Assembly: GCF_002176815.1 (NCBI RefSeq)
Contig: NZ_CP021648.1
Span: forward strand, 1 to 64,000
Length of the DNA stretch: 64,000 nt
Reading direction: 5' to 3'
DNA from: Acidovorax sp. T1
GTDB lineage: Bacteria > Pseudomonadota > Gammaproteobacteria > Burkholderiales > Burkholderiaceae_C
Both the position numbers and the translations under genes were made by a program. Under the pieces are notes generated by a model that saw nothing but the letters and a program-made list of their open reading frames with translations, was not told the origin of the DNA and ran no database searches. The first letter of the stretch is position 1. Each line of letters opens with the position of its first letter. Of the stretch, positions 2,699 to 42,501 are shown piece after piece.

Positions 2699-5420
<2,722 letters not shown>

Positions 5421-5520: not shown

Positions 5521-5670
5521 TTGGATAAGTATGTGTGGGCCGGGTATCTTCGGGAACCTCAACAGATCAACCGCTGGTGTATCTCAGACAGGCGACGCAC
5601 CAGCTTACTTGAACGAATGGGTGGCTGGAAGGTTTTGTAAACCTTTCGTAGGTGAGTTTCTGCGGAGCCT

Positions 5671-7593: not shown

Positions 7594-7704
7594 CGGGTAC
7601 ACGCGAATCGGCATCGCTCGTGTGATTTGCCATCGTGTATGTCCTCCCGCTCTAAAAGTGATGAATACTTGGCGGAAGCCATTGGAATACCTCCGGCGTC
7701 GCCC

Positions 7705-9959: not shown

Positions 9960-12900
9960 GCGCCGACGCCTCCTTCATCCTGCAAGAGCTGCACCTGTAC
10001 AACTGGGGCGCGTTTGCGGGCCGCCACCAGGTGGCCATCGACCCGGGCAACAGCGCCATCATCGGGCCCACGGGCAGCGGCAAGACCACGCTGGTGGATG
10101 CGCTGATGACGCTGCTGTGCGCCAGCCCGCGCTACAACCTGGCCTCCACCGGCGGGCACGAAAGCGACCGCGACTTGGTGAGCTATGTGCGCGGGGCCAG
10201 CGGCCAGGGCAACGACAGCGGTGACCACATTGCGCGGCCCGGCCGCTGCGCCACCGGCGTGGCAGCACGGCTGGTGCGCGAGGGCGCGGCGGGGCAGGAA
10301 TCCGTCTGGCTGGGCGCGCTGCTGTGGTTTGACGGCAGCAGCCAGTCGGCGGGCGACATGCAAAAGCGCTGGTTCTTTGCGCAGGGGCAGGGCCACAGCC
10401 TGGACCTGTGGCTGGAAGAGCAGCACAGCGGTGGTGCCAAGGCACTGACGCGGCTGGCCAAGGACAGCGACGGCTTGCAGATGTTCAGCAGCAAGGCGCC
10501 GTACCTGGCCAAGCTGCACAGTTTTTTTGAGGTCGGCCCCAACGCCTTCACGCTGCTCAACCGTGCGGCAGGCCTCAAGCAGCTCAACAGCATTGACGAG
10601 ATTTTTCGCGAGCTGGTGCTGGACGACCATTCGGCCTTTGACGATGCGCAGAAGGTGGTGGATGGGTTTGCCGAGCTGGCCTCCATCCATGCCGACCTGG
10701 AGCTGGCCAACGCGCAGTGGGTGTCGCTGCTGCCCTTGCGCGATTTGGCCGCACGCGAGCAGCAGCAGGCCCAGCACCTGGCGCACTTGCAGGCGCTGCA
10801 GCAGCAACTGCCGCACTGGTTTGCAGCGCAGGGCGTGCAATGGTGGGGCCAGCGCGCGGCGCAGTTGCAGGCACAGATCGCTGCCCGCAGTGGCGAGTTG
10901 CTGGAAGCGCAAGAGCGCGTCCACACGGCGCGCAAGCATGAGCAGGATCTGCACGGCCTGTACCTGCAAGCGGGCGGTGCCAATATCAATGTGCTGCGCG
11001 AGAACATCGACCACGCACGCAAGGCCTTGGCGCGTATCCAGCACCACCTCGTGCAGTACCAGGCGCTGGCACGCAACCTGGGGCTGGGGGATAACGCAGG
11101 GGCCGGCGACCTTGCCAGCCACCAAGCCCAGGCGCAGGCTGCGATGGAAGAGATCGACGCGCGCCAGACTGCACTGCAGGCCAGCGCCGAACACGCCATC
11201 GCCCAGGCCCACAACGCCCACACCCGCCTGACCGAGACCCAGGCCGAATACGACGCTGTGCGCCAGCGCCCCGGCTCCAACCTGCCGATGGAGTTCCAGC
11301 GCTTTCGCACCGATCTGGCCGACCATCTGGGCTTGCCAGAGAGCGACTTGCCCTTTGCCGCCGAGCTGCTCGAGGTGCGCCAAGCAGAGCAGGCGTGGCG
11401 CGGCGCCATCGAGCGTGCGCTGGGCAGCCACCGCCTGCGCATCCTGGTGCCCCAGGCGGCGATGCACGCCGCGCTGCAATGGGTGAACCAGCGGCACAAC
11501 AAGCTGCATGTCCGCCTGCTGGAAGTGCGCGATGCCACGCCTGCGGCGTTCCTTGCCGACGGCTTTGCACGCAAGCTCAACCTCAAGCCCGCCACACCCA
11601 CAGCGCACCTGAACACGCTGCGCCAATTGCTGTCTGGCCTGGACCGCCACTGCGTGCCCGACGTGCAAACCCTGGAGCGCACACCCCACGCCATGACGGC
11701 GCAGGGGCTGATGTCCAGCCACTCCGGCCACTTTGACAAGCAGGACCAAAAGCGGCTGGACCAGGACTGGATGACAGGCTTTGACAACCGCGACCGGCTC
11801 GCGCATTTGCTACAACAAAAGGAGCTGCTCGCGATTGACTATCAAGCGCTGGAGGCCGAAAAGACCCGAATCCTTGCCACCCAGCGCCGCGCGCAGGAGC
11901 AGCGCCAACTGTGGGCGGCACTGCAAGCGCTGCAGCACGACGACCTGGACACCACTGCCGCCGATGCGCAGTTGCAGCACAAAGAGCAGCAACTGCAGGC
12001 GCTGCTCCACCCCGACTCAGACACCGCCCAAGCCCAGCAGCGCTGGGAGGCCGCACAGGCCCAGACCCGCACCGCCGATGAACAGCTGCGCCACCTGCAA
12101 ACAGCGCAGACGCAAGACGAGACCTTGCAGGCTGCTGCACAGACGAAGCACAGCGCTTACCAGGCACGCAGCGCTGACGCGCCAGTGATCGCCGCCGACT
12201 TTGCTGCACAGCTGACCAGTACCGGCCACCGCCTGCCCCCGCTCGATGGCGACAACCTCGAAGCCCAGGAGCGCGACGCAGGCAATGCCGTGCAAGCCAA
12301 AACCACCGAGGCCAGCAAGAAGCTCAACACCCTGCACACCGACATCGTGCGCCAGATGGGCAAAGCCAAGGCCGAAGACCGGGGCGCGCTGGCCGACCAC
12401 GGGCAAGAGGTGGATGCGCTGCCCCACTACCTGCAGCGCCTGCAGGTGCTGGAGGAAGAAGCCCTGCCGCACAAGCGCCAGCGGTTTCAGGAATACCTCA
12501 ACAACACCTCGCAGCAGGGCGTGGACACCTTGCTCAATGGCATTGCCGCGCAGGTGGCAGACATTGAAGAGCGCATTGCCCAGCTCAACGCCACATTGCG
12601 GCGCGTGGATTTTCAGCCCGGCCGCTACCTGCAACTGGAGCCCCGCGCCGTCGTGCACCAGAGCCTGCAAGAGCTCAACCGCGCCCAGGCCCAGCTGCGC
12701 ACCGAAAGCCTGCGCGACGATGGCGGCCAAAGCCACTACCGCGCGCTGCGCGCCATCGTGGAGATGCTGCAAACCCACGCCACCAACCGCCGCAGCAAGG
12801 CCGCGCAGGCGCTGCTGGACGCCCGCTACCGCCTGCAGTTTGCCGTGCTGGTGCTGGAGCGGGGCAGCGGCCAGATGCTGGAGCGGCGCACCGGCTCGCA

Positions 12901-13300
12901 AGGCGGCAGTGGGGGCGAGAAAGAAATCATCGCCAGCTACGTGCTCACCGCATCACTGAGTTACGCGCTGTGCCCCGACGGCGCCAGCCGCCCCGTGTTC
13001 GGCACCATCGTGCTGGACGAAGCGTTCTCCAAAAGCTCGCAGGCCGTGGCCGCGCGCATCATCCAGGCGCTGCGTGAGTTTGGCTTGCACGCGCTGTTCG
13101 TCACGCCCAACAAGGAAGTGCGCCTGCTGCGCAACCACACGCGCAGCGCCGTGGTGGTGCACCGGCGGGGTGCGCAGGCCACGCTGGCATCGTTGCGCTG
13201 GGAGGAGATTGATGCATTCAGAAAAGCACCCCCTGAGTCGCCTGCGGCGCCCGTTTCAACGGTGACGGGCGATGCGCTGGACGATGCATCACCGGCATGA
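9956..13300 (+). CDS. jetC: Wadjet component JetC (SMC-like ATPase)
   Basis: The motor of Wadjet, an SMC/MukB-like ATPase thought to extrude DNA loops until the circular substrate is cleaved by JetD. The 1114-residue protein has Walker A GPTGSGKTTLVDAL at about 36-49. Long Gln/Ala/Leu-rich heptad stretches at about 255-400 and 600-880 fit antiparallel coiled-coil arms. The ABC signature region GGSGGEKEIIASY lies near 983 and Walker B TIVLDEAFSK near 1016. Residues about 620-640 (LLQQKELLAIDYQALEAEK) coincide with a degenerate dispersed repeat inside the coding sequence. It overlaps jetB and jetD by 4 nt each (ATGA). Confidence 0.9.
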   Translation: MSADASFILQELHLYNWGAFAGRHQVAIDPGNSAIIGPTGSGKTTLVDALMTLLCASPRYNLASTGGHESDRDLVSYVRGASGQGNDSGDHIARPGRCATGVAARLVREGAAGQESVWLGALLWFDGSSQSAGDMQKRWFFAQGQGHSLDLWLEEQHSGGAKALTRLAKDSDGLQMFSSKAPYLAKLHSFFEVGPNAFTLLNRAAGLKQLNSIDEIFRELVLDDHSAFDDAQKVVDGFAELASIHADLELANAQWVSLLPLRDLAAREQQQAQHLAHLQALQQQLPHWFAAQGVQWWGQRAAQLQAQIAARSGELLEAQERVHTARKHEQDLHGLYLQAGGANINVLRENIDHARKALARIQHHLVQYQALARNLGLGDNAGAGDLASHQAQAQAAMEEIDARQTALQASAEHAIAQAHNAHTRLTETQAEYDAVRQRPGSNLPMEFQRFRTDLADHLGLPESDLPFAAELLEVRQAEQAWRGAIERALGSHRLRILVPQAAMHAALQWVNQRHNKLHVRLLEVRDATPAAFLADGFARKLNLKPATPTAHLNTLRQLLSGLDRHCVPDVQTLERTPHAMTAQGLMSSHSGHFDKQDQKRLDQDWMTGFDNRDRLAHLLQQKELLAIDYQALEAEKTRILATQRRAQEQRQLWAALQALQHDDLDTTAADAQLQHKEQQLQALLHPDSDTAQAQQRWEAAQAQTRTADEQLRHLQTAQTQDETLQAAAQTKHSAYQARSADAPVIAADFAAQLTSTGHRLPPLDGDNLEAQERDAGNAVQAKTTEASKKLNTLHTDIVRQMGKAKAEDRGALADHGQEVDALPHYLQRLQVLEEEALPHKRQRFQEYLNNTSQQGVDTLLNGIAAQVADIEERIAQLNATLRRVDFQPGRYLQLEPRAVVHQSLQELNRAQAQLRTESLRDDGGQSHYRALRAIVEMLQTHATNRRSKAAQALLDARYRLQFAVLVLERGSGQMLERRTGSQGGSGGEKEIIASYVLTASLSYALCPDGASRPVFGTIVLDEAFSKSSQAVAARIIQALREFGLHALFVTPNKEVRLLRNHTRSAVVVHRRGAQATLASLRWEEIDAFRKAPPESPAAPVSTVTGDALDDASPA
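11808..11867 (+). repeat. Dispersed two-hairpin repeat, copy 3, inside jetC
   Basis: A degenerate copy in the coiled-coil coding region of jetC: TTGCTACAACAAAAGG, AGCTGCTCGCGATTG, TATCAAGCGCTGGAGGCC, AAAAG. The ATCAAGCGCTGGAGGCC block matches intergenic copies closely. Confidence 0.55.
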
Positions 13301-14487
13301 AATCACCCCAAACCCTGGCGGCCAAGCTGGCCCAGCAATGGCACAGCGCCGATTGGCGCGAGCGCCAGCTTCTGGGCGGTGGCGCCGCGTGGCCGCTGAC
13401 CCTTTCCATCGGCCAACCCGACTCCTCTGTCTTCATCGGTGACGCCGCCGCGCTGCGCAGCCATCTGCAACAGTGGCGCGCGGTGGAGCAGCACGGCCTG
13501 GGCAGCGTGGGCAACGTGCAGTGGCAAGAGCGTCGCTACCGTGGCAGCAGCGACGCCATCGCCGTGCCCACGCACTGGCAGCTGGCCAAGCCCTCGCAGT
13601 GCGTGGCGGCCATCGGCCACTTCAAGGTGCCGGGGCATGCACAGGTCCACAAGGACTATGCCCGGCTCAGCACGCTCATCGCGGCGGTGGAGCGCAGCGG
13701 CTTTCAGCGCCTGCTGGTGCGCCGCCTGGTGCAGTGGCGCGACACACCGACCGAAGCCGTCATCACCGCCGCACGCATGGCGCTGCAACTGGAGCCCGGC
13801 TGCGCCCAGGGCAAGCCCCTGCGTGCATTGGCCGTGCAGGGCAACGACAGCAAATTCTTCGAGCGCCACGCCAGCCTGCTCACCGCCTTGCTGGACGAGC
13901 GCTTTGACGGCGAGGCCAGCCGCCAAGGGCTGCTCGGCTTTTTGGGCGCGCTGCCGGAGGATGACCACTGGCTGCTCATCACCCCACTGGCCCCCGGCCT
14001 GCTGCCTTTTGCACGCCAGCGCGTGCGCGCCAGCGAGCTGCTGACCACACCGCTGCCCGCCCGCCGCATCCTGCTGGTAGAAAACGAACGCAGCCTGCAC
14101 CAACTGCCCCAGCCCCTGGCGGGCACCATCGCCGTGCTGGGCGCGGGGCTCAACCTGGGGTGGCTTGCAACGCCATGGCTGCAAGAGCGCCAAGTGGCCT
14201 ACTGGGGCGACCTGGACACCTGGGGCCTGCACATGCTCGCCATCGCGCGTGGCCATGTGCCGCACCTGCGGGCACTGCTGATGGACCGCGCCACCTTCAA
14301 CGCCCACCAGCCACTGGCCGTGGCCGAGCCGGTGCACGCGCCCGCATCCGCCTGCGGCCCGTTGGGGCCCGATGAAGCTGGGCTGGACGGACACCTGCGC
14401 GCGCAGGAAAAAGGGCGGCTGGAGCAGGAGTTCTTGCCCACAGACACCGTGCACCGCGCCGTGCGCGCCTGGGCGGCTGGAGATTAG
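13297..14487 (+). CDS. jetD: Wadjet component JetD (DUF3322/DUF2220, Toprim nuclease)
   Basis: The nuclease subunit of Wadjet, with an N-terminal arm (DUF3322) and a C-terminal Toprim-like domain (DUF2220) related to topoisomerase VI/Spo11. The 396-residue product shows the Toprim pattern: the acidic strand ILLVENERSL near 260, GAGLNLGWLA near 285, and the DxD-type motif YWGDLDTWG near 301-309. The catalytic acids therefore look intact and the system is probably functional. It overlaps jetC by 4 nt. The next gene begins 16 nt downstream but belongs to an unrelated housekeeping family, so the operon core ends here. Confidence 0.85.
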   Translation: MKSPQTLAAKLAQQWHSADWRERQLLGGGAAWPLTLSIGQPDSSVFIGDAAALRSHLQQWRAVEQHGLGSVGNVQWQERRYRGSSDAIAVPTHWQLAKPSQCVAAIGHFKVPGHAQVHKDYARLSTLIAAVERSGFQRLLVRRLVQWRDTPTEAVITAARMALQLEPGCAQGKPLRALAVQGNDSKFFERHASLLTALLDERFDGEASRQGLLGFLGALPEDDHWLLITPLAPGLLPFARQRVRASELLTTPLPARRILLVENERSLHQLPQPLAGTIAVLGAGLNLGWLATPWLQERQVAYWGDLDTWGLHMLAIARGHVPHLRALLMDRATFNAHQPLAVAEPVHAPASACGPLGPDEAGLDGHLRAQEKGRLEQEFLPTDTVHRAVRAWAAGD

Positions 14488-21819: not shown

Positions 21820-22055
21820 TGGATGCCCGGGCAGGGTGCCTGAACAGGGCACTGCGGTGTAGCATTAACATCCCATTGCAGAAACACCCCTTTGGGCATG
21901 CCGCACCAGCGCCTGGTGCCCGGCCGTAAAGCGAGCCTCTGCCCACCTCCCTGGCCTTTCATCGTTCAACCTGTTTCCCGTTCTTTGCGTTCTGGTCACT
22001 CCATGCAGGCAATGCCGATTTCGCTGTCCGCCTCACCGTGCCGCCTTGGTGGCCC

Positions 22056-25000
22056 ATGGGGCTAGTGGGCATGCCGCCTGCGCAAAACGCCCCCCGGGAA
22101 GCCGCGCGCCTGCGTGCGTTGCAGTCATACGCCATCCTGGACACGCCCGCCGAAGAAGCGTTTGACCAGCTGGCTGTTCTGGCCGCACGCATCTGCAACA
22201 CGCCGATGGCGGTGGTGAATTTTCTGGACAGCGAGCGCCAGTGGTTCAAGGCGGCTGTAGGCGTGCCCTTCAGGCAGACCGACCGGGCCATTGCGTTTTG
22301 CAACCATGCACTGAGCGGTAGCCGTGAACCCCTGGTGGTGGCCGATGCGCGCCAGCACCCGCTGTTTGCCAACAACCCGCTGGTGCTGGGCGAGCCGCAT
22401 ATCCGGCTGTATGCCTGCTTCCCGCTGGTCACCCCTGAAGGCGCGGCGCTGGGCACGCTGGCGGTGCTGGACACGGTGCCCCGCCCGTTGGCCGATGAGC
22501 AGCTGGAGGGCCTGAAGATTTTGGCCGGCCAGGCCATGGTGCTGCTTGCGCTGCGCCGCCAGCAACGCCAGTTGTCGCAACTGGTGCAGGAACGCGACCA
22601 GATACATGCCAATCTGGTGGAAAAGAGCGAAACCCTGGGCGAGGCCGCCCGCACTGCACGCATCAACGAAGAACGCTTTCACCTGGTGGCGCGTGCCACG
22701 GCCGACACCATCTGGGACTGGAACCTGGTCACCGATGCGATGTGGTGGAACGAGGGCATGCAGCACCTTTTCGGCGTTCCACCCGGCGAGTTGCCGCCCG
22801 ACAGCCGCTCGTGGACCGAGCGCCTGCATCCCGATGAAAGCGCCGACCTGCTGCACAGCATCCATGCTGCCATCGATGGCAACGCCAGCCACTGGTCGGC
22901 CGAATACCGCTTTCGCCGCCAGGACGACAGCTATGCCTGGGTGCTGGACCGCGGTTTCCTGATCCGCGATGGCGATGGCCGGGCGGTGCGCATGGTTGGC
23001 GGCATGACCGACATCAGCGCCCACAAGCTCGCCGAGATGGAAACGCGGCGCGATGCGCACAACCACGCCCAACTGCTGCAACTGCAGCAGCGCATGTCGT
23101 CCATGGACCTGCCGTTGCCCGAGGTGCTGGCCCTGGTGGCCCAAACGGTGCTGGAGCAGACCGGCGCGCGCGGTGCCATGGTGGATCTGCTCGAGGGCAG
23201 TCACCTGGTAACCCATGCATCCGCTGGCGACATGGTGCGCCCCCAGGGCTTGCGGCTGCCGGTGGAGCAAAGCCTGCTGTGGCCCGCGCTCTGCCAGGGG
23301 CGCACCGTGGCCTGCCATGACACCGAGCTCGAAGGCTGGGACCTGGCGTCCAAACCCCACTGGCGCGGCCTGCGCTCGGTGGCTGCAGCGCCCTTGCGGG
23401 CGGGCGATGCCGTGGTCGGATTGCTCATGCTCACCTCCGACCGGCCCCACGCCTTTTCGGCGCGCGACGTGGCCCACCTGGAGATCCTGACCGAGTCCCT
23501 GGGCACCATGGTGCAGCTGCGCCACGTGGCCAGCCAGCTGCACGCCTCCGAACTGCAATACCGCTTGCTGTTTGACGAGCACCCACACCCCATGTGGGTG
23601 TATGCACAGGACAGTTTGCGCCTGCTGGCGGTCAACCAGGCCATGGTGGCGCACTATGGCTACACCGAGGCCGAGCTGCTGCAGCTGGAGCTGCCGGCGC
23701 TGTGCGCCCCCGAAGACCGCCCCGGACTCAAAGAGCGGCTGCAGGCCGTTTTTCAGTTGCCACGCGACAAGTTTGTGGTGCGCCGCCATGTCCGCAAGGA
23801 CGGCAGGCTGATGCAGATGGAGATTTCCGCGGGCAACATCAGTTTCAACGGGGTGGCCGCCCGCCAGGTGCTGGCCATTGATGTCACCGAGCGGCTGCGC
23901 ACCGAAGACGAGCTGCGCCGCATGGGCCGGGCGCAACGCCTGCTCAGCGCCTGCAATGAGGCGCTGGTGCGCGCCACGTCCGAGGCCTCACTGCTAAAGG
24001 AAATCTGCCAGATCGCCGTGGACATTGGCGGCTACCGCTTGGGCTGGGTGGGCTTTGCGCTGAACGACGAAGCCAGGACCATCCAATCCGTGGCGCATGC
24101 GGGCTACAACGACCGGTATCTCGAAGAACTGCAACTGAGCTGGTCCGAAGACAGCCCCTACGGCCACGGGCCCGCCGGGGTGGCGGTGCGCAGCGGCGCA
24201 CCCGTGATCGTGCAGGACATCCGCACCGACGGCAGCTTTGCCGACTTGACCGAGCGCATGCTGGAGCACGGCTTTCATGGCGTGATCTGCCTGCCCCTGC
24301 GCGAACGCGAGCACAGCTTTGGTCTGCTGTACCTGTATGCCCCCGAGATCCTGCACATCAGCGCCGAAGAGGCCACGCTACTGCAGCAACTGGCCAACGA
24401 CCTGGCCTTCGGCATCATGAGCCTGCGCGCCCGGATGGAACAACAGCGCCTGCAGGCCGCGGTGCTCAAGATGGCGGCCGCCGTGTCGGCCAGCACGGGC
24501 ACAGAGTTCTTTGTGCAGCTGGCCAAGAACATGGCCGAGGCCCTGGGTGCACAGGTGGGCTGCGTGGGCCGCCTGCTGCCACCGCAGCAAGGGCAGGCGC
24601 CGCGCGCGGTGGCACTGGCGGCGGTGCTGGATGGCGAGAAACTGCCCACCAGCGAATACGCGCTGGCCGGCACACCCAGCCTGCTGCTGCTCAGCCAGCA
24701 ACAGGTGGTGGTGCAGGACAACGTGGCGCAGCAGTATCCCGAAGCGCCCATATTGCGCCAGATCGCGGCGCAAGGCTATGCCGGGCAACAGCTGTGCAAC
24801 GCCGATGGCGAAGTGGTGGGCATGATCTTCGTGGTGTTCCGCGAGCCGCTCACCAACACCGACTTCGTCACCTCGACCCTGCGCATCTTTGCCAGCCGCG
24901 CCTCGGCCGAGATCGACCGGCAGATGTCGGACAAGCGTATACGCCACCAGGCCTCGCTGCTCGACAAGGCCCAGGACGCCATCATCGTGCGCGATCTCGA

Positions 25001-26612
25001 GCACCGCATCATCTACTGGAACAAGAGTGCCGAGCGGCTGTATGGCTGGTCGCAACTGCAGGCGCTGGGCCAGTCCATCGAGACCCTGCTGTACGACGAC
25101 CCCACGCAGTTTCGCCGCGCCACCCGGGCCACCCTGGAACATGGCGAGTGGACCGGCGAAATCGTGCAGCGGCACCGCGACGGCAGCCCCATCGATGTGG
25201 AAGGGCGCTGGACACTGGTGAAAGACGATGCCGGCGAGGGCCATTCGGTGCTGGCCATCAACACCGACATCCGTGCGCGCAAGGCCACCGAGCGCGAGAT
25301 CCAGCGCCTGGCGTTCTACGACGCGCTCACCGGCCTGCCCAACCGCATGCTGCTGATGGACCGCATGGGCCAGGCGCTGGCCAGCGCCCAACGGCGCCAG
25401 CAGGGCGGAGCGCTGCTGTTCATCGACCTGGACAACTTCAAGACCCTCAACGACACCCTGGGCCACGACCAGGGCGATCTGTTGCTGCAGCTGGTGGCGC
25501 AGCGCCTGAACAGCTGCGTGCGCAGCGTGGACACCGTGGCGCGCCTGGGTGGCGACGAGTTCGTGGTGATGCTCGAAGAGCTCAGCCAAAACCCCCAAGA
25601 ACTGGCCCGGGATGCCATGGGTGTGGGCGAAAAAATCCTGGCCATGCTGGCCGTGCCCTATGCGCTCAAGGGCTACCAGTACCGCAGCACCCCCAGCATC
25701 GGCATCGCGCCGTTTGAGGGCGACCAGACCAGCGTGGGCGAGCTGCTCAAACAGGCCGACCTGGCCATGTACCAGGCCAAGACCGCCGGGCGCAACACCC
25801 TGCGCTTCTTCAGCCCCGAAATGCAGGCCGTGGTGACCGCCCGCGCCGCACTCGAGGAAGACCTGCGCTCGGCCCTGGTGCAGGACGAATTCCTGCTGCA
25901 CTACCAGCCGCAGGTCAACCAGACGGGCCAGTGCGTGGGGGTGGAGGCGCTGGTGCGCTGGGCCCACCCGCAGCGCGGCATGGTGTCGCCCGCACAGTTC
26001 ATTCCCCTGGCCGAAGAAACCGGGCTGATATTGCCACTGGGCCGCTGGGTGCTGCACCACGCGTGCACATTGCTGGCGCGCTGGCAGGACGAGCCGCAGC
26101 TGGCGCACCTGACCATGGCCGTCAACGTGAGCTCGCGCCAGTTTCGCCATGCCAGTTTTGTGGACGATGTGGCCCGGGTACTGGCCATCACCGGCGCACC
26201 GTCGGGGAAACTCAAGCTGGAGCTGACCGAAAGCCTGCTGGTGGAAGACATGGAAACCACCATCGCCACCATGGCAGCATTGCGCTCGTATGGCGTGGGC
26301 TTTTCGCTGGACGACTTCGGCACCGGATACTCGAGCCTGAGCTACCTCAAACGCATGCCGCTCGATCAGCTCAAGATCGACCAGAGCTTTGTGCGCGACC
26401 TGCTCACCGACCCCAACGACGCCGCGATTGTGGACACCATCATTGCCCTGTCGCGCAGCCTGGGCCTGGAAGTCATCGCCGAGGGCGTCGAAACCCCCGA
26501 GCAACGCGATCTGCTGGCCCGCGCGGGCTGCCACCTCTACCAGGGCTACCTGTTCAGCCGCCCCCTGCCCACGGACCTCCTGGAGGCCTTCCTGCGCCCC
26601 GATATGCCCTGA
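22056..26612 (+). CDS. Multi-sensor diguanylate cyclase/phosphodiesterase (GAF-PAS-GGDEF-EAL)
   Basis: A large predicted cytoplasmic c-di-GMP enzyme of 1518 residues. An N-terminal GAF domain (about 25-170, with ILDTPAEEAFDQLAVLAARI) is followed by a PAS domain around WDWNLVTDAMWWNEGMQHLFG, further GAF and PAS modules, and a final PAS (IIYWNKSAERLYGW near 985). The GGDEF domain has RLGGDEFVVML near 1162 preceded by a complete RxxD inhibitory site (RSVD). The EAL domain has GVEALVRW near 1294 and DDFGTGYSSLSYLKRMPLDQ near 1417. Both catalytic signatures are intact, so it may make or degrade c-di-GMP. No transmembrane segment is seen. GTG 22038 and ATG 22071 are alternative starts. A terminator lies 30 nt downstream. 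Confidence 0.88.
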   Translation: MGLVGMPPAQNAPREAARLRALQSYAILDTPAEEAFDQLAVLAARICNTPMAVVNFLDSERQWFKAAVGVPFRQTDRAIAFCNHALSGSREPLVVADARQHPLFANNPLVLGEPHIRLYACFPLVTPEGAALGTLAVLDTVPRPLADEQLEGLKILAGQAMVLLALRRQQRQLSQLVQERDQIHANLVEKSETLGEAARTARINEERFHLVARATADTIWDWNLVTDAMWWNEGMQHLFGVPPGELPPDSRSWTERLHPDESADLLHSIHAAIDGNASHWSAEYRFRRQDDSYAWVLDRGFLIRDGDGRAVRMVGGMTDISAHKLAEMETRRDAHNHAQLLQLQQRMSSMDLPLPEVLALVAQTVLEQTGARGAMVDLLEGSHLVTHASAGDMVRPQGLRLPVEQSLLWPALCQGRTVACHDTELEGWDLASKPHWRGLRSVAAAPLRAGDAVVGLLMLTSDRPHAFSARDVAHLEILTESLGTMVQLRHVASQLHASELQYRLLFDEHPHPMWVYAQDSLRLLAVNQAMVAHYGYTEAELLQLELPALCAPEDRPGLKERLQAVFQLPRDKFVVRRHVRKDGRLMQMEISAGNISFNGVAARQVLAIDVTERLRTEDELRRMGRAQRLLSACNEALVRATSEASLLKEICQIAVDIGGYRLGWVGFALNDEARTIQSVAHAGYNDRYLEELQLSWSEDSPYGHGPAGVAVRSGAPVIVQDIRTDGSFADLTERMLEHGFHGVICLPLREREHSFGLLYLYAPEILHISAEEATLLQQLANDLAFGIMSLRARMEQQRLQAAVLKMAAAVSASTGTEFFVQLAKNMAEALGAQVGCVGRLLPPQQGQAPRAVALAAVLDGEKLPTSEYALAGTPSLLLLSQQQVVVQDNVAQQYPEAPILRQIAAQGYAGQQLCNADGEVVGMIFVVFREPLTNTDFVTSTLRIFASRASAEIDRQMSDKRIRHQASLLDKAQDAIIVRDLEHRIIYWNKSAERLYGWSQLQALGQSIETLLYDDPTQFRRATRATLEHGEWTGEIVQRHRDGSPIDVEGRWTLVKDDAGEGHSVLAINTDIRARKATEREIQRLAFYDALTGLPNRMLLMDRMGQALASAQRRQQGGALLFIDLDNFKTLNDTLGHDQGDLLLQLVAQRLNSCVRSVDTVARLGGDEFVVMLEELSQNPQELARDAMGVGEKILAMLAVPYALKGYQYRSTPSIGIAPFEGDQTSVGELLKQADLAMYQAKTAGRNTLRFFSPEMQAVVTARAALEEDLRSALVQDEFLLHYQPQVNQTGQCVGVEALVRWAHPQRGMVSPAQFIPLAEETGLILPLGRWVLHHACTLLARWQDEPQLAHLTMAVNVSSRQFRHASFVDDVARVLAITGAPSGKLKLELTESLLVEDMETTIATMAALRSYGVGFSLDDFGTGYSSLSYLKRMPLDQLKIDQSFVRDLLTDPNDAAIVDTIIALSRSLGLEVIAEGVETPEQRDLLARAGCHLYQGYLFSRPLPTDLLEAFLRPDMP

Positions 26613-26643
26613 GGCAGATTCACTCCCCGGTTTTTCCCACCCA

Positions 26644-26669
26644 CCGCAGCCTGGCCTGCGGTTTTTTTT
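26644..26669 (+). terminator. Rho-independent terminator after the GGDEF/EAL gene
   Basis: Stem CCGCAG/CTGCGG with loop CCTGGC, followed by eight T residues. It isolates the downstream origin-like region from transcription coming from the left. Confidence 0.85.
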
Positions 26670-26744
26670 GCCCTTTTTTTTCCGCCCAGCGTTTTGCCAT
26701 GACACCGGGACATGGGCTGAAAACGGCGACGGGTTGTTCTGCTG

Positions 26745-26970
26745 TTATTGATTAAAGGTTTCTATAAATACATAGTCGTAGTAGTAGAGGGCGGCTTTCT
26801 CTGTGGACAACTGCCTTTTGCCTTGCCACGACAGCCACTTGCGCTGCGCCCAACCCTGTGGACGCAGCCCGGCTGCCGCTGTCTGCCACCCGGGGATAAA
26901 ACCGGACCAGCGCCCACTTCTGTGGATAACTGCCCGGTTGTGCCAGATCTATCCCCCGTTTTGTGCACAT
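26745..26970. other. Origin-like module A (DnaA-trio tract, GC block, DnaA boxes)
   Basis: Read on the minus strand this has the order DnaA box, GC block, CTA trinucleotides, AT-rich DNA, which is the basal unwinding system known from Bacillus subtilis. On the plus strand there is AT-rich ATTGATTAAAGG and TCTATAAATACA, then a TAG tract at 26773-26787 (TAG, TCG, TAG, TAG, TAG), AGGGCGGC, and a DnaA box TGTGGACAA (26802-26810) 14 nt after the last TAG. More boxes follow: a weak one at 26857-26865, a perfect TGTGGATAA at 26921-26929, and TTGTGCACA at 26961-26969. No promoter or gene is supported here. Confidence 0.7.
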
Positions 26971-26994
26971 GGACGGGGGTTCGGGCAGGTTTGG

Positions 26995-27053
26995 ATAGAA
27001 ATCAGGTGGTAGCGCCTGTGTAGTAAGCGCCATGAGCTATTTATTCAATAGCA
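26995..27053 (-). repeat. Dispersed two-hairpin repeat, copy 8
   Basis: On the minus strand: TGCTATTGAATAAATAGCT, ATGGCGCTTACT, CAGGCGCTACCACC, then GATTTCTA. It lies between origin-like module A and the 3' end of the DUF1232 gene. Confidence 0.75.
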
Positions 27054-27080
27054 AACAGGACCAGGGATCCCCAGCAGGCG

Positions 27081-27482
27081 CTATGCAGCCAGCCAGGGCC
27101 TGACCCACCAGTGCCACAGCGCCAGGCCGGCGCCGATCCAGCAGGCCACGATCAGCACGACGCCGATGCGGCTGACGGGCTTGCCGCCCTCGGTCTTGAT
27201 CCACTGGTCGGCCTGTTCGCGGCATTCCTGCAGCACGGGCGCCGGAATCAGCCGGATCACCAGCCAGATCAGCCCTGGCAGCAGCAACACGTCGTCCAGG
27301 TAGCCCAGCACGGGGATGAAGTCCGGAATCAGGTCGATGGGACTGAGGGCGTAAGCCACGACAAAAACACCCAGCGCCTTGGCATACCAGGGCGCCTGTG
27401 GGTGCCGCGCGGCGAACCACAGCGTGACGCCGTCCCGCTTGACAGTTCTGGCCCAGGTTTTCAGGTGGTTCGCAAGGTGCAC
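27081..27482 (-). CDS. DUF1232 (YkvA-family) small membrane protein
   Basis: A 133-residue protein of unknown function with the DUF1232 signature LGVFVVAYALSPIDLIPDFI (about 37-56) followed by PVLGYLDDVLLLPGLIWLVI. Two or three hydrophobic segments (about 37-53, 62-82 and 106-125) suggest an inner-membrane protein. It sits between the two origin-like modules and is transcribed leftward toward module A. Members of the family are common, and no link to replication is established. A repeat copy lies at its 3' end. Confidence 0.85.
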   Translation of the reverse strand: MHLANHLKTWARTVKRDGVTLWFAARHPQAPWYAKALGVFVVAYALSPIDLIPDFIPVLGYLDDVLLLPGLIWLVIRLIPAPVLQECREQADQWIKTEGGKPVSRIGVVLIVACWIGAGLALWHWWVRPWLAA

Positions 27483-27574
27483 AGGTTTTTCCGGTGGGGG
27501 TACGGGGCAGGCCGCGCGCCATTTTTAGAGCATTCAGGGCGGCCTCAGGGGCGCAAAGAAGGTTTTGGTTGTTC

Positions 27575-27795
27575 TTCTATGGTTCTATATATAAATAGTA
27601 GTAGTAGTAGAGGGCGCCATTTTTTGTGGACAAGGTCTTTTTCCCCAATGCTGGCGCGCAGTTGCGTTGCCTGAAAGTATGTGTGGCGAGGCCCTTGAAC
27701 TTTGCGGCCGGCAGATAACAACTTTCGGGTTTCTGCTTTGTCTGTGGATAACTGCCCGGTTGTGCCAGTAATGCCCCCAGCGTTATCCACAAGCG
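27575..27795. other. Origin-like module B (DnaA-trio tract, GC block, DnaA boxes)
   Basis: A second copy of the architecture, in the same orientation as module A. AT-rich TTCTATATATAAA is followed by five perfect TAG triplets (27596-27610), AGGGCGCC, and a DnaA box TGTGGACAA (27625-27633) 14 nt after the last TAG. Then come a perfect TGTGGATAA (27743-27751) and a perfect TTATCCACA in the other orientation (27783-27791). A 28-bp stretch beginning at 27741 is identical to one beginning at 26919 in module A. The distance from the first box to this block is 118-119 nt in both. Confidence 0.75.
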
Positions 27796-27798
27796 CAA

Positions 27799-27830
27799 AA
27801 AAACCCGGCACCTTGGTAGGTGCCGGGCTT
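27799..27830 (-). terminator. Rho-independent terminator for the Spy-like gene
   Basis: A 9-bp stem CCCGGCACC/GGTGCCGGG with loop TTGGTA. On the minus strand it is followed by a T-run (TTTTTTT). It lies 50 nt after the Spy-like gene, directly beside the last DnaA box of module B. Confidence 0.85.
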
Positions 27831-27876: not shown

Positions 27877-28449
27877 TTAACGGGCGGGGCCACCCATGCC
27901 GCCCATGGGCATGTCGCCACCGCGCATGCCGCCGTGGTGGCCATGTTCGCCATGGCCATGGCCCCAGTCACCGCGGTGACCGCCCTTGCCGCGCATTGGC
28001 TGGGCCTGGGCGTCGAAGGTCTTTTGCTGCTCTGGTGTCAGGGCGGCGTAGAAGGTCTTGGTGGCTTCACCGCGGCGGTCGGCTTCGGCTGCGTGCTGGG
28101 CGCGCTGGGCGCGCATGCGGTCGATGCGTTCCGGGGTGGTGAGCTTTTCCATTTCGCTGCGGTCCATCGTGCGGTCCAGGCGGGCGGGGCGCTCGCCGGG
28201 TTGCATGGCGGCGGTGAACGCGGTCCAGGCGGGCTCCTGCGCCGGCGTCAGTTTCAGTTGCGCCTTGAGGGCGTCGATGCGTTGGGCCATGTGGGCCTGG
28301 CGGCGCTCCTGCCGGTCGCCCGGCTTGCGGGCCTGCTCGGCCGAGGCGCCTGCGGCGGGCGGCGCAGAAGGGGCTGGCTGGGCCAGCACGGGCAGAGCGA
28401 AGGCGGCCATCATGGCGGCGGCGGCGATACGGCGTTGGAAGAAAGACAT
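27877..28449 (-). CDS. Spy/CpxP-like periplasmic LTxxQ protein
   Basis: A 190-residue exported protein related to the periplasmic chaperone Spy. The start MSFFQRRIAAAAMMAAFALPVLAQ at 28449 gives a clear signal peptide. The mature part has two LTxxQ-type motifs, LTPAQEPAWTAF (about 65) and LTPEQQKTFDA (about 135). It ends in a His/Gly/Met-rich tail (HGHGEHGHHGGMRGGDMPMGG) that could bind copper or another metal, fitting the copper genes 2 kb away. Upstream in-frame codons to 28617 lie before the signal peptide and were rejected. Confidence 0.78.
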   Translation of the reverse strand: MSFFQRRIAAAAMMAAFALPVLAQPAPSAPPAAGASAEQARKPGDRQERRQAHMAQRIDALKAQLKLTPAQEPAWTAFTAAMQPGERPARLDRTMDRSEMEKLTTPERIDRMRAQRAQHAAEADRRGEATKTFYAALTPEQQKTFDAQAQPMRGKGGHRGDWGHGHGEHGHHGGMRGGDMPMGGMGGPAR

Positions 28450-28761
28450 GGTGTGGGTCCTTTTCAAGGGGTTGGTCCGCTGGTACGACCGTTCCAGCGG
28501 TTGAGGGTCAGTGTGCGCGGCCCGTGTAACCCGCCCGTGTGGGATTGATGCGCCTGTGTAAAGTTGCAACAAGAAGTCCGGTGCCTGGTCGGAATGCATT
28601 CCGCATAAAAATGGCATGAAGCGCTTTTAGGTAAAGTGCTAACAGCTATCAAAAACAGAGTGAAAGCGGGCGTTGGACCCGCAAGGGGGCCAGCCGACCC
28701 CCGACAATGTCGGCTGTACTCCGCAATGGCTGGAAATGGCCAGAAGAAACAAAGGTTGTCC
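28450..28761. other. Divergent intergenic region between the Spy-like gene and rdgC
   Basis: 312 nt. It contains one dispersed repeat on the minus strand (28603-28660). An inverted repeat GGAATGCATTCC occurs near 28591-28602 (a perfect 12-bp palindrome), which might be an operator. No gene is supported. Confidence 0.55.
28603..28660 (-). repeat. Dispersed two-hairpin repeat, copy 9
   Basis: On the minus strand: GTTTTTGATAGCTGT, TAGCACTTTACC, AAAAGCGCTTCATGCC, ATTTTTATG. It lies in the Spy-rdgC gap next to a 12-bp palindrome. Confidence 0.78.
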
Positions 28762-38039: not shown

Positions 38040-38055
38040 TGTTTCACGTGAAACA
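38040..38055. other. parS site 1 (perfect)
   Basis: TGTTTCACGTGAAACA is a perfect 16-bp palindrome identical to the chromosomal parS consensus bound by ParB. It is intergenic, between the FMN reductase and mnmG, about 4.5 kb upstream of parB. Confidence 0.93.
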
Positions 38056-38243
38056 AGGCCGGGCAGGCTGGAGCGCACATGCGCCGCAAGGGTGTCGGCA
38101 TGGCCCTTGGGCGTGCGCCAGCCAAAGGTGGGAAAATTGCAGGCTTTCCGCTGCACGGCCCACAAGGCCGGCGCGGGGTGGGCGCAGGAGCGTCGGTGTT
38201 TGGTGCGTGTGTGGTTATGGGCCGGTGGCCCTGGAGTTGTCCC

Positions 38244-40274
38244 ATGTTGTATCCCCAGGAATTTGATGTGATCGTGGTCGGCGGTGGCCATGCAGGCACC
38301 GAGGCCGCGCTGGCCGCTGCGCGCATGGGGCAACGCACGCTGCTGCTCACCCACAACATCGAGACGCTGGGGCAGATGAGCTGCAACCCCAGCATCGGCG
38401 GCATCGGCAAGGGCCACCTGGTCAAAGAGGTGGACGCGCTGGGTGGCGCCATGGCGCTGGCGACCGACGAGGGCGGTATCCAGTTCCGCATCCTCAACAG
38501 CAGCAAGGGCCCGGCCGTGCGCGCCACGCGGGCGCAGGCCGACCGCATTCTGTACAAGGCCGCCATCCGCCGCATGTTGGAGAACCAGCCCAATCTGTGG
38601 CTGTTCCAGCAGGCGGTGGACGACCTGATGGTGGAATCCACCGGTTCTGGCGACCGCGTGGTGGGCGCCGTCACGCAGGTGGGCATCCGCTTTCGCAGCC
38701 GCACCGTGGTGCTGACGGCGGGCACTTTCCTGGACGGCAAGATCCATGTGGGCCTGAACAATTACGCCGCCGGCCGGGCAGGGGACCCGCCCGCCGTGTC
38801 GCTGTCGGCACGCCTCAAGGAGCTGAAGTTGCCCCAGGGCCGCCTGAAGACCGGCACGCCGCCGCGCATTGACGGGCGCAGCATCGACTTTTCGAAGTGC
38901 ACCGAGCAGCCCGGCGACGGCATGCCCGGCGGCGTGAACGAGGGCACGGTGCCCGTGTTCAGTTTCATGGGCAATTCGCAGATGCATCCGAAGCAGGTGC
39001 CTTGCTGGGTGACCCACACCAACGAGCGCACGCACGACATCATCCGCAGCGGCTTTGACCGCAGCCCCATGTTCACCGGCAAGATCGAGGGCGTGGGCCC
39101 GCGCTATTGCCCCAGCGTGGAAGACAAGATCAACCGCTTTGCCGACAAGGACAGCCACCAGATCTTTCTGGAGCCCGAGGGGCTGACCACGCACGAGTTC
39201 TACCCCAATGGCATCAGCACCAGCCTGCCGTTCGACATCCAGTACGACCTGGTGCGCAGCATGCCCGGGCTGGAGAATGCGCACATCCTGCGCCCCGGCT
39301 ACGCCATCGAATACGACTACTTCGACCCGCGCTCGCTCAAGAGCAGCTTCGAGACGCGCCAGATCCAGGGCCTGTTCTTTGCCGGCCAGATCAACGGCAC
39401 CACAGGCTATGAAGAGGCGGCGGCCCAGGGCTTGTTCGCCGGCATCAACGCCGCGCTGCAGTGCCGGGAGATCAAGGGCGAACCCAATGCGTTCGGCGGC
39501 GCCTGGCTGCCCGGCCGCGACGAGGCCTACCTGGGTGTGCTGGCGGACGACCTGATCACCAAGGGCGTGACTGAGCCCTATCGCATGTTCACCAGCCGGG
39601 CCGAGTTTCGCCTGCAGCTGCGCGAGGACAACGCCGACATGCGCCTGACCGAAGCGGGGCGCCGCATGGGGCTGGTGGACGATGCGCGTTGGGACGCCTT
39701 CAGCCGCAAACGCGATGCGGTTTCACGTGAAACAGAGCGCCTCAAGGCCACCTGGGTGAACCCGCGCAACCTGCCAGCGGCGGAATCCGAGCGCGTGCTG
39801 GGCAAGCGCATCGAGCATGAATACAACCTGTTCGAGTTGCTGCGCCGCCCCGATGTGAACTATGCCAACCTGGTGTCGATGGATGGCGGCAAGTACGCGA
39901 CCAAGGACGTTTCACGTGAAACGCTGGGTGACCTGAGCGAGCCGGTGGTGGAGCAGGTGGAAATCGCCGCCAAGTATGCGGGTTACATCGACCGCCAGAA
40001 GGGCGAGGTGGAGCGCGCCGCGCATTTCGAGAAACTGCGCCTGCCGGCCGAGCTGGACTACATGCAGGTCACGGCGCTGAGCATCGAGGCGCGCCAGGTG
40101 CTCAGCCGACACCGCCCCGAAACCCTGGGCCATGCCTCCCGCATCACGGGCATCACGCCGGCGGCGATCTCGCTGCTGATGGTGCATTTGAAGAAAGGTG
40201 GGTTCAAGGAGTTTGCGGTGGCCCCAGTTGTCCCGGACACCCCTGCGAAGGCAGAAGGGGAAATAGCGGCATGA
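38244..40274 (+). CDS. mnmG: tRNA uridine-5-carboxymethylaminomethyl modification enzyme MnmG (GidA)
   Basis: With MnmE it modifies the wobble uridine (cmnm5U) of several tRNAs using FAD and methylene-tetrahydrofolate. The 676-residue protein has the FAD site [20 protein letters not shown] (about 8-27), [12 protein letters not shown] (about 47) and [11 protein letters not shown] (about 290). The methionine/FAD region [14 protein letters not shown] (about 383) and C-terminal helical domain follow. Two parS palindromes lie within the gene, each read as VSRET. It is the first gene of the conserved mnmG-rsmG-parA-parB origin-proximal cluster and overlaps rsmG by ATGA. The start [15 protein letters not shown] at 38244 fits the family. 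Confidence 0.96.
39720..39733. other. parS site 2, inside mnmG
   Basis: A perfect 14-bp core GTTTCACGTGAAAC, flanked by G and A. It is read in frame as Val-Ser-Arg-Glu-Thr of MnmG. Confidence 0.88.
39909..39922. other. parS site 3, inside mnmG
   Basis: A second perfect 14-bp core GTTTCACGTGAAAC, 189 nt from site 2 and in the same codon phase, again read as VSRET. Confidence 0.88.
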
Positions 40275-40972
40275 CGATGGCAGTGCACAACGATGCCTTG
40301 CGCCAGCAACTGCAGGCGGGCGCGGACGCGCTGGGCTTGGGCCTGGCCGAGGCGCAAATCACCCAGCTGCTCGACTTTCTGGCCCTGCTGCAAAAGTGGA
40401 ACAAGGTCTACAACCTGACGGCCGTGCGCGACCCGCAGGAGATGCTGACGCACCATTTGCTCGACAGCCTGGCGGCGGTGGCGCCGCTGCGCCGCCAGGT
40501 GGCGGCATTGCGGCAGGGCGGCGTGCCCACACCTGCTCCCGTGCGCTTGCTCGACGTGGGCTCGGGTGGCGGCCTGCCCGGCGTGGTGTTTTCCATCTGC
40601 TGCCCGGATGTGGATGTGAGCTGTGTGGATACCGTGGGCAAGAAAGCTGCGTTCATCCAGCAGGCGGCGGTGGCGCTGAAGCTGCGCAACCTGCACGGCC
40701 TGCACGCTCGGGTCGAGACCTTGACCACACCGTTCGACATCATCAGCTGCCGCGCCTTTGCTTCGCTGCCCGACTTCGTGGGCTGGTCGCGGGCTGCGCT
40801 GATGGCGCCGCACGGTGTCTGGCTGGCCATGAAGGGCAAGCACCCTTCGGATGAAATCGCCGCCTTGCCCGCCGCCGTGCAGGTGTTTCACGTGGAACAG
40901 CTTACCGTGCCGGGGCTGGATGCCGAGCGCTGCATCGTCTGGATGCAACCGGCCACAGCGCCCGTGGCTTAA
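40271..40972 (+). CDS. rsmG: 16S rRNA (guanine(527)-N7)-methyltransferase RsmG
   Basis: Methylates G527 of 16S rRNA using S-adenosylmethionine. The 233-residue protein has the family motif [20 protein letters not shown] (about 43-62), the SAM-binding loop [17 protein letters not shown] (about 94-110) and [12 protein letters not shown] (about 156). It overlaps mnmG by 4 nt, the usual arrangement. A parS site lies near its 3' end, read as VFHVEQ. Confidence 0.95.
40884..40899. other. parS site 4, inside rsmG
   Basis: TGTTTCACGTGGAACA. Its reverse complement TGTTCCACGTGAAACA fits the degenerate consensus TGTTNCACGTGAAACA perfectly. It lies 210 nt upstream of parA. Confidence 0.85.
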
Positions 40973-41109: not shown

Positions 41110-41922
41110 ATGGCCAAGATTTTTTGCGTTGCCAACCAGAAGGGTGGCGTTGGCAAGACCACCACCACCGTCAACCTCGCCGCCGGCTTGGCCAAGATCG
41201 GCCAGCGCGTGCTGATGGTGGACCTGGACCCCCAGGGCAATGCCACCATGGGTTCGGGCGTGGACAAGCGCAGCCTGGAGCTTTCGGTGTACGACGTGCT
41301 GCTCGAATCCGCCTCGGTCAAAGAGGCGGCGGTGCTGGCGGAAAAATGCGGTTACTGGGTGCTGGGCGCCAACCGCGAGCTGGCCGGCGCCGAGGTGGAG
41401 CTGGTGGCGCTGGAGCACCGCGAAAAGCGCCTCAAGGCCGCGCTGGCCGAGGTGGATGCCGACTACGACTTCGTGCTCATCGACTGCCCGCCGTCTCTGT
41501 CGATGCTCACCCTCAACGGCCTGTGCAGCGCGCATGGCGTGGTCGTGCCCATGCAGTGCGAATACTTCGCGCTCGAAGGCCTGACCGATCTGGTCAACAC
41601 CATCAAGCAGGTGCACGCCAACCTCAACACCGATCTGCAGATCATCGGCCTGCTGCGCGTGATGTTCGACCCGCGCATCACGCTGCAGCAGCAGGTCAGC
41701 GAGCAGCTCAAGGGCCACTTTGGCGACAAGGTGTTCAACAGCGTGATCCCGCGCAACGTGCGCCTGGCCGAGGCGCCCAGCTACGGCCTGCCGGGCGTGG
41801 TGTTTGACCCGGCGGCCAAGGGCAGCCAGGCGTTTGTCGAATTTGCGCAAGAGATGGTCGAGCGTGCGCGGACCATGCCTGCTGCGACAACTTCCATAGC
41901 CAAAACGACGCCTAGAGCTTGA
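41110..41922 (+). CDS. parA: Chromosome partitioning ATPase ParA (Soj)
   Basis: The Walker-type ATPase that moves ParB-parS complexes during chromosome segregation. The 270-residue product has the deviant Walker A KGGVGKTTTTVNLAAGLA (about 11-28), Walker A' DLDPQGNATMG (about 39-49), Walker B DFVLIDCPPSLSMLTLN (about 120) and IPRNVRLAEAPSYGLPG (about 216). It has no N-terminal DNA-binding extension, as is usual for chromosomal ParA. The last dozen residues (TTSIAKTTPRA) and the stop codon are encoded by a dispersed repeat. A small hydrolase gene separates it from parB. Confidence 0.96.
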   Translation: MAKIFCVANQKGGVGKTTTTVNLAAGLAKIGQRVLMVDLDPQGNATMGSGVDKRSLELSVYDVLLESASVKEAAVLAEKCGYWVLGANRELAGAEVELVALEHREKRLKAALAEVDADYDFVLIDCPPSLSMLTLNGLCSAHGVVVPMQCEYFALEGLTDLVNTIKQVHANLNTDLQIIGLLRVMFDPRITLQQQVSEQLKGHFGDKVFNSVIPRNVRLAEAPSYGLPGVVFDPAAKGSQAFVEFAQEMVERARTMPAATTSIAKTTPRA

Positions 41923-41956: not shown

Positions 41957-42496
41957 ATGAAGTCCTCCAACATCCTGCTGCTGCCCGGCTGGCAGAACTC
42001 CGGCCCCGACCATTGGCAAAGCCTGTGGGAGGCCTGCCACGGCTACCACCGCGTGGAGCAGCACGACTGGATGCGCCCGCTGCGTGGCGACTGGTCGGCG
42101 CGGCTCGAAGAAACCGTGGTCGATGCTGACGGCCCCGTGGTGCTGGTGGCGCACAGCCTGGGCTGCATTCTCACCGCCTGGTGGGCGGCGCATTCGCCCA
42201 ACGCCCACCGCGTGCAGGGCGCGCTGCTGGTGGCCCCTGGCGATGTGGAGCGGCCCGACCTGGCCGCGCAAATCCACGGCTGGTCGCCCATCGCGCGCCA
42301 GGCGCTGCCGTTCCCCACCGTGCTGGTCGGCAGCCGCAACGACCCGTATTGCAGCTTTGAGCGCGCGCAAGGCCTGGCACAGGCCTGGGGCGCGCGCTTT
42401 GTCGATTGCGGCGAGCGGGGCCACCTCAACGCCGAATCCGGCCTGGGCGACTGGCCCGAGGGCCACCACCTGCTGCGCACCCTTTTGAAAGATTGA
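41957..42496 (+). CDS. RBBP9/YdeN-family alpha/beta hydrolase
   Basis: A 179-residue serine hydrolase of the RBBP9/YdeN family. The N-terminus ILLLPGWQNSGPDHWQSLWE is diagnostic. The nucleophile elbow is VLVAHSLGCILTAWWAA (Ser about 67), the acid is probably in GSRNDPYCSFERA (about 128), and the catalytic histidine lies in GERGHLNAESGLGDWPEG (about 155-160). Substrate unknown. It sits between parA and parB, an unusual position; parB starts 5 nt after its stop, so it is probably co-transcribed with both. Confidence 0.88.
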   Translation: MKSSNILLLPGWQNSGPDHWQSLWEACHGYHRVEQHDWMRPLRGDWSARLEETVVDADGPVVLVAHSLGCILTAWWAAHSPNAHRVQGALLVAPGDVERPDLAAQIHGWSPIARQALPFPTVLVGSRNDPYCSFERAQGLAQAWGARFVDCGERGHLNAESGLGDWPEGHHLLRTLLKD

Positions 42497-42501
42497 CGAA
42501 C

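Follow-up and report, generated by a model that had tools for sequence, protein, structure and literature searches.

The window analysed here, with a GC content of 66%, is the first 64 kb (64,000 nucleotides) of the 4,098,001-bp contig NZ_CP021648.1 of Acidovorax sp. T1; the contig was taken as the closed chromosome, and three further contigs (183, 79, and 56 kb) were taken as plasmids. The window contains two tandem modules (26734-26957 and 27563-27791) at a distance of 823 bp, flanked by a GGDEF/EAL gene and a Spy-like (LTXXQ) gene that both point toward them. The order within each module is AT-rich DNA, TAG triplets (a DnaA-trio), a 14-nt spacer, a DnaA box designated box A (TGTGGACAA), and a second designated box B (TGTGGATAA). 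Box B is 119 bp from box A in module 1 and 118 bp from it in module 2, which alone adds a perfect inverted box C (TTATCCACA at 27783). The two modules align with each other over about 230 bp. The features of the locus and its surroundings are as follows.

8-1435, 1492-2679, and 2805-5420, plus strand: dnaA, dnaN, and gyrB, at the left end of the window, 27 kb from the modules
22038-26612: GGDEF/EAL gene, pointing toward the locus from the left
26643-26662, plus strand: terminator of the GGDEF/EAL gene, from the terminator scan (fold z -1.9)
26734-26778, plus strand: module 1, AT-rich putative unwinding stretch with TAG TCG triplets at its right end
26779-26787, plus strand: module 1, DnaA-trio run, three TAG (8/9 columns invariant in 30 Acidovorax loci)
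26788-26801, plus strand: module 1, 14-nt spacer with the GC block AGGGCGGC
26802-26810, minus strand: module 1, DnaA box A, TTGTCCACA (8/9 columns invariant)
26921-26929, minus strand: module 1, DnaA box B, TTATCCACA, +119 from box A
26949-26957, plus strand: module 1, degenerate inverted box, +147, with 3 mismatches in this genome
27081-27482, minus strand: DUF1232/YkvA-family gene between the modules (PF06803, E 8e-14)
27563-27595, plus strand: module 2, AT-rich putative unwinding stretch
27596-27610, plus strand: module 2, DnaA-trio run, five TAG (8/9 columns invariant in the three box-proximal triplets)
27611-27624, plus strand: module 2, 14-nt spacer (2/14 columns invariant)
27625-27633, minus strand: module 2, DnaA box A, TTGTCCACA
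27743-27751, minus strand: module 2, DnaA box B, TTATCCACA, +118 from box A
27783-27791, plus strand: module 2, inverted DnaA box C, TTATCCACA, +158
27797-27827, minus strand: terminator of the Spy-like gene, a stem at 27804-27827 and then seven T
27877-28617, minus strand: Spy-like (LTXXQ) gene, pointing toward the locus from the right
38040-40899: parS-like cluster, with sites at 38040 (0 mismatches), 39719 (1), 39908 (2), and 40884 (1)
38079-40274, 40271-40972, 41110-41922, and 42406-43494, plus strand: mnmG, rsmG, parA, and parB

Compared with the E. coli consensus, box A of either module has a single mismatch, and its orientation relative to the triplets is that of the B. subtilis unit. 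By eye, the spacer contains no second, weaker DnaA box beside the trio-proximal one; the published BUS program accepts a single box. The right terminator is plain in the sequence (fold -23.9 kcal/mol, z -5.0) and absent from the list of the terminator scan, which gave 4 terminator-like sites versus 2.1 ± 1.5 in shuffles; the left terminator by itself proves little. No promoter-like site was scored at the locus, versus 0.3 expected, which makes this a weak test.

An earlier note on this DNA had described two non-coding segments with AT-rich DNA, a TAG trio, a GC block, and a DnaA box in that order, and all of these elements were present in both copies. The three perfect boxes that it listed, at 26921 (-), 27743 (-), and 27783 (+), were confirmed, and the two TTGTCCACA boxes at 26802 (-) and 27625 (-) were added to them. 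Its description of a duplication far from dnaA, with a gene between the copies and a terminator on either side, also held: the modules are 27 kb from dnaA, the gene is the DUF1232/YkvA gene, and the terminators are those on the left (z -1.9) and right (z -5.0) listed above.

The stretch between gyrB and the modules contains a type I Wadjet system (7627-14487, with matches to the JetA, JetB, JetC, and JetD models), accompanied by an AbiEi-type antitoxin-like ORF at 5652-6740. This Wadjet stretch between gyrB and the putative origin is about 9 kb long here versus about 3 kb in the sister genome G131.

Sites matching TTRTCCACA numbered 50 in the genome, 47 of them on the chromosome, compared with 18 for a reversed-pattern control. 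Five of the 50 fall within this 1 kb, the highest count for any 1 kb of the genome, and the density of DnaA boxes, which the earlier note had named as a check, thus came out in favor of the locus. Two further pairs of perfect DnaA boxes, at 486419/486754 (335 bp apart) and 2683477/2683612 (135 bp apart), lie elsewhere on the chromosome and are possible sites of DnaA titration or reactivation.

The combination of triplets and box was rarer still. A generic trio-box search (three TAN triplets, a spacer of 0 to 16, and a box with at most one mismatch) returned these two elements only in 1.58 Mb of sampled chromosome (window included, pieces partly overlapping) and had 0 matches in 5 Mb of order-1 simulated sequence. 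The published BUS rule, at least three triplets, each with A in the middle, no more than 16 bp from a DnaA box that has two mismatches at most, as given in the available text of PMC8287927, picked out two places in the window and, with at most one mismatch, nowhere else in the sampled chromosome. The two AT-rich stretches are the sole 40-bp stretches of ≤25% GC within the 64-kb window. A module sequence model of 64 columns, built from 37 examples with both T1 modules among them, gave E values near 1e-17 for both modules; any other match in 1.46 Mb of the same chromosome, the dnaA region included, was no better than E 0.15. Against the whole genome it gave 2 matches at E ≤0.01, both at the locus, and 3 at E ≤1.

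The modules are conserved throughout Acidovorax. The 261-bp module 2 query matched 46 of 47 genomes of the genus, its own included. With the trio-14-box pattern, 42 of the 47 had two modules, 4 had one, and 1 (G100) had none, and the reversed control had 0 matches; both modules were on one strand in all 42 two-module genomes. Among the genomes with a single module by pattern, the 261-bp DNA query showed a second module in G119 and a second box-B part in G107. G100 was the sole genome of the genus without a match by either DNA or pattern, although it is rated 100% complete, and may use a diverged origin. Wherever both were mapped (12 of 12 Acidovorax chromosomes, T1 included), the pair was about 22 to 87 kb downstream of dnaA on the same strand.

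Thirty Acidovorax loci, the best 30 of the 46 matching genomes (T1 included), were compared and none was dropped; because the query held module 2 with boxes B and C, this choice favors module 2, and module 1 lay outside the query. Box B was at +119 in all 30 first modules and, in second modules, at +118 in 29 and +119 in 1. The inverted box C of module 2 was at +158 in 28 of 30 loci and +159 in 1, and the module 1 inverted box at +147 had at most two mismatches in 25 of 30. When spacer lengths of 10 to 17 were allowed, the length was 14 in all 30 loci, and yet the spacer sequence varied (0/14 columns invariant in module 1 and 2/14 in module 2, versus 8/9 for the triplets and for box A in both modules). 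Columns -38 to -24 before box A of module 1 were also well kept (12/15 invariant). The distance between modules ranged from 465 to 1003 bp, and in 17 of 30 loci the box A sites were 465 to 534 bp apart, with little room for a DUF1232 gene. Between boxes A and B, no IHF consensus (≤2 mismatches) was common to at least 10 of the 30 loci, and no consistent Fis site was found between boxes. Matches in the AT stretches were IHF-like in module 1 at -39 (29/30) and Fis-like in module 2 at -43 (24/30).

The same spacing was found outside the genus. Among 85 distinct modules from loci not labelled Acidovorax, which were picked by the triplet and box A motif and not by box B or C, box B was at +118 in 30 and +119 in 47 (77/85), related modules among the 85 not being independent of one another. 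The inverted box was at +146 to +148 in 39 of these modules and at +158/+159 in 10. The 14-nt spacer was a condition of selection, and its length is therefore no independent result for this set.

Model matches at E ≤1 were detected in 136 of 150 genomes of the family, and the pattern search matched 17 of 150, with 0 for the control. Same-strand pairs within 12 kb, 268 to 9,519 bp apart, were present in 22 of the 74 family genomes with matches down to E 9.8e-7, including two Acidovorax, and opposite-strand pairs in none of the 74. Weaker matches added further same-strand pairs, for example in G007, G034, G201, G216, G220, and G233; in G044 and G202 they gave pairs on opposite strands, separated by about 4 kb. 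The pair of G007, which belongs to another genus of the family, is on the strand opposite to dnaA. In each of G004, G205, and G003, three of the model matches listed share a contig and a strand; these are possible three-module origins.

Two modules were also present in 22 of 54 named stretches, on the same strand in 19 and on opposite strands in 3, all Aquabacterium; these counts are minima because many stretches end near a module. The titles of the 54 stretches name genera of the Comamonadaceae and their relatives, or Burkholderiales, and in one case only Pseudomonadota. In the three Aquabacterium stretches (L244, L259, and L260), the modules are inverted with their boxes facing each other, 438 to 448 bp apart.

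Pairs were also found in two genomes outside the family. The two modules of G419 bear triplets, are separated by 301 bp, and have spacings of +119 and +118; in G151, the model matched twice on one strand, at a distance of 391 bp. An order-wide search with the model matched 10 of 150 genomes, and the module model is therefore lineage-specific. The spacing pattern was found in 17 of 300 genomes order-wide (control, 0), and most of the matches outside the family were without TAG-type triplets beside box A. In L285-L288, from family f45 of the order, +118/+119 box spacing is preceded by GAT/TGA-type triplets instead of TAG, possibly a variant trio.

A tree of about 213 bp was built from 60 Acidovorax modules and 30 others, the latter from 17 loci chosen for having pairs (L230, L250, L263, and L270 contributed one module each). 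Acidovorax modules 1 grouped with the upstream modules of two other genera (G223 and G088; support, 0.956), and Acidovorax modules 2 grouped with the downstream modules of the same two (support, 0.939); these genera fall close to or inside Acidovorax. The separate module 1 and module 2 lineages indicate that the duplication is at least as old as the group formed by Acidovorax, G223, and G088. Both modules of two Hydrogenophaga-type stretches (L224 and L225) fell on the module 1 side, and thus pairs elsewhere may have arisen or been homogenized separately. The earlier note therefore understated the find: the modules are conserved genus-wide, have a fixed box-to-box spacing, and recur in the family.

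The surroundings of the locus also resemble those of an origin. Only four places in the genome match the parS consensus with at most two mismatches (reversed-pattern control, 2 places), and all four are 10 to 13 kb from the modules, within and beside mnmG-rsmG-parA-parB. In the relatives G131 and G132, no parS-like site was found in the sampled pieces, which contain none (G131) or only part (G132) of the mnmG-parAB stretch. Across the window, cumulative GC skew declines as far as 27-28 kb and rises from there on. The chromosome-wide sampled skew maximum is at about 2.06 Mb (100-kb steps), compared with the 2.08 Mb expected opposite the locus on a 4.098-Mb circle. A dif search with a gammaproteobacterial consensus gave 0 matches, so the terminus is placed by the sampled skew only.

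This locus is very probably the chromosomal origin. The fuller reading, that it is the single chromosomal origin (oriC) of this Acidovorax species and has two modules of the same orientation, each a complete DnaA-dependent unwinding unit, is one that we hold with good confidence. DnaA-ATP would bind box A, with high affinity like E. coli R1, and box B, and the fixed distance of 118/119 bp between them, which corresponds to about 11.3 turns at 10.5 bp per turn, would allow DnaA at B and at A to meet via a DNA loop. From box A, a DnaA polymer would grow over the spacer and along one strand of the TAG triplets, and it may then open the AT-rich stretch on the left, permitting helicase loading. The parABS system 10 to 13 kb away would segregate the new origins.

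As judged from the sequences, the two modules might both open and share the work, one might be a spare, or one might only load DnaA. The strict retention of triplets in both modules disfavors the last option, and the variable distance (0.3 to 9.5 kb), together with the inverted cases, favors loose coupling over one rigid complex. Because both modules are conserved, we infer from this conservation that both can open and may cooperate, or serve as alternates within one orisome. The strongest competing view concerns this step only and leaves the origin claim intact: only one module would open, probably module 2 with its additional TAG triplets and box C, and the other would load DnaA, titrate it, or stand by as a spare. 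We regard this as a serious possibility but lean against it. It agrees with the degenerate third box and fewer TAG triplets of module 1, with the single DUE reported for the bipartite origins of B. subtilis and H. pylori in the available text of PMC8235120, and with the two elements of P. aeruginosa, only one of which is described as essential under usual conditions (Gao 2015, PMC4403523). Yet an element that merely docks DnaA needs no triplets, and the triplets, 14-nt spacing, and box A are equally strict in module 1; the module 1 and module 2 lineages of Acidovorax and two further genera also separate in the tree.

A bolder extension of the two-module reading is a dual-bubble origin in the Comamonadaceae, in which each module would open its own stretch and load one replicative helicase. 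We consider this rather unlikely. If true, one round would launch its two forks from different modules, 0.3 to 9.5 kb from each other and linked through bridging by DnaA, and bidirectional loading would be solved in another way than by the DnaD-element route proposed for Bacillus.

Cumulative GC skew over the whole chromosome is the main evidence for placing the origin elsewhere. The earlier note had named a cumulative minimum elsewhere as an outcome that would speak against its candidate origin, and the T1 chromosome as a whole does have its minimum at 3.882 Mb, which is 243 kb to the left of the locus; when only the stretch from -100 to +150 kb of dnaA is considered, skew is lowest at 3.998 Mb and not at 27 kb. 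The candidate is thus backed by its motifs, by parS, and by the skew turn within the window, but not by the global skew. Nevertheless, it is very unlikely that the true origin is near 3.88 Mb. There is no TTRTCCACA site between 3.704 and 3.989 Mb, no module in the sampled chromosome pieces, and no parS-like site there, and the sampled maximum at 2.06 Mb would give replichores of 2.28 and 1.82 Mb.

Comparison with relatives offers an explanation for the displaced minimum. Relative to the closed genome G132, the left flank of the locus contains inverted and moved blocks, whereas the right flank is colinear. We propose that rearrangement of the left flank displaced the T1 skew minimum from the locus, although either T1 or G132 may have changed. 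Genes keep their side of the locus in the T1-G132 comparison except for 6 matches at 67 to 76% identity, which may be paralogues. In G132 itself, the lowest sampled cumulative GC and TA skew (600 kb, two thirds sampled) is at 1,746,500, on the border of an unsampled 10-kb gap; its module pair (1,755,772 and 1,756,501), 44 kb from dnaA, lies in that gap. G131, the nearest relative, has a skew plateau left of the locus. The T1 chromosome also has 20 kb at 46.5% GC (3810001-3830000) versus 58 to 69% in other sampled pieces; this stretch, about 50 kb from the skew minimum, is possibly a foreign island.

It is slightly less credible still that the locus, rather than being an origin, titrates or reactivates DnaA (datA/DARS-like) or is a promoter region under DnaA control. 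DnaA boxes in an intergenic region would fit such a role, but a site of that kind would not need to retain triplets and AT-rich DNA, there is a terminator on either side of the locus, and the count of promoter-like sites, weak as it is, does not point that way. Moreover, no other trio-box element was found in the 1.58 Mb sampled, nor by the model genome-wide at E ≤0.01.

Least credible is an origin immediately in front of dnaA, its place in many bacteria, an outcome that the earlier note had named as speaking against the locus: dnaA is at position 1 of the record and its promoter has two DnaA-box-like sites, but neither the model nor the generic search found a trio-box element in the dnaA region, cumulative GC skew is still falling from 0 to 27 kb, and the parS cluster is on the far side of the modules. 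A plasmid-type origin inserted in the chromosome was rejected, as 81 plasmid records match but none covers 80% of the query; the 20 listed of these 81 all match the DUF1232 gene part.

The two-module reading bears on how replication starts. In models of bacterial origins, a single unwinding element has to load two helicases, and the way in which both are loaded is described as unclear for B. subtilis (PMC10201434, available text). Two separately conserved modules, tandem in most pairs and inverted in some, make the helicase-loading question testable, and the fixed 118/119-bp spacing across genera is a measurable constraint on DnaA loop geometry. There is also a warning for origin-prediction tools, which, according to the parts of these papers considered, rank one best unwinding candidate (PMC8287927) and use the dnaA neighborhood and skew minima (PMC10225481). 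The published genome survey of BUS was filtered to the best-scoring candidate, leaving one in >99% of genomes (PMC8287927), and a second module would therefore have been dropped.

Relative to the cases found, what appears new from the sequences is the presence of two complete unwinding units in one origin; a displaced origin is not itself new. Among the listed titles and openings of abstracts, no study of a Comamonadaceae origin and no two-BUS origin was found, and prior listing, for example in DoriC, is possible. In the available accounts, the origin of A. citrulli M6 was marked with OriFinder (PMC6595937), and displaced origins are known from E. coli (PMC8287927) and from the Ori-Finder text (PMC10225481). 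The origin of Burkholderia cenocepacia chromosome 1, also in the Burkholderiales, is likewise described with AT-rich DNA and more than one DnaA-box cluster; its exact position is reported as unclear, and the part of the paper considered (PMC4948915) gave no description of triplets or modules.

More than one origin-like element per chromosome is a trait shared with the putative double origins of DoriC (Gao 2015) and with a single-chromosome Vibrio cholerae strain mentioned as having two origins (PMC10225481, available text). The pair listed for Ralstonia pickettii 12D, at hemE and dnaA, is 291 kb apart (PMC4403523, available text), in contrast to the 823 bp between the T1 modules. The bipartite origins of B. 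subtilis and H. pylori are more similar in having two DnaA-box clusters with a gene between them. That gene is dnaA, and one cluster has the DUE, according to the available text of PMC8235120; at the T1 locus a DUF1232 gene lies in between, and each cluster has its own unwinding element. The arrangement that defines the bipartite type, dnaA in between and a single DUE, was thus not found at this locus.

The E. coli oriC is located between mnmG and mioC, about 44 kb from dnaA. The Acidovorax locus is similar in being near mnmG and in being separate from dnaA, as the E. coli origin is in the available text of PMC8287927. The distance from R1 to the DUE in E. coli is given as 13 bp (PMC8235120, available text), versus 14 in Acidovorax, and the IHF site between R1 and the next boxes has no counterpart common to 10 or more of the 30 Acidovorax loci between boxes A and B. 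The closest likeness is to the B. subtilis incC BUS and its homologues (Richardson, Pelliciari, Murray), which, in the accounts available, share a DnaA box, a spacer, at least three TAG triplets on one strand, AT-rich DNA, and a distal box able to loop. The distal DnaA box of B. subtilis acts through a loop with helical phasing and is active at 132, 297, and 462 bp (PMC6669920, available text). The commonest spacer length in published BUS is 13 (PMC8287927, available text), compared with 14 in Acidovorax. Unlike published BUS, the Acidovorax locus has two complete units, 27 kb from dnaA, with the distal box at a fixed 118/119 bp.
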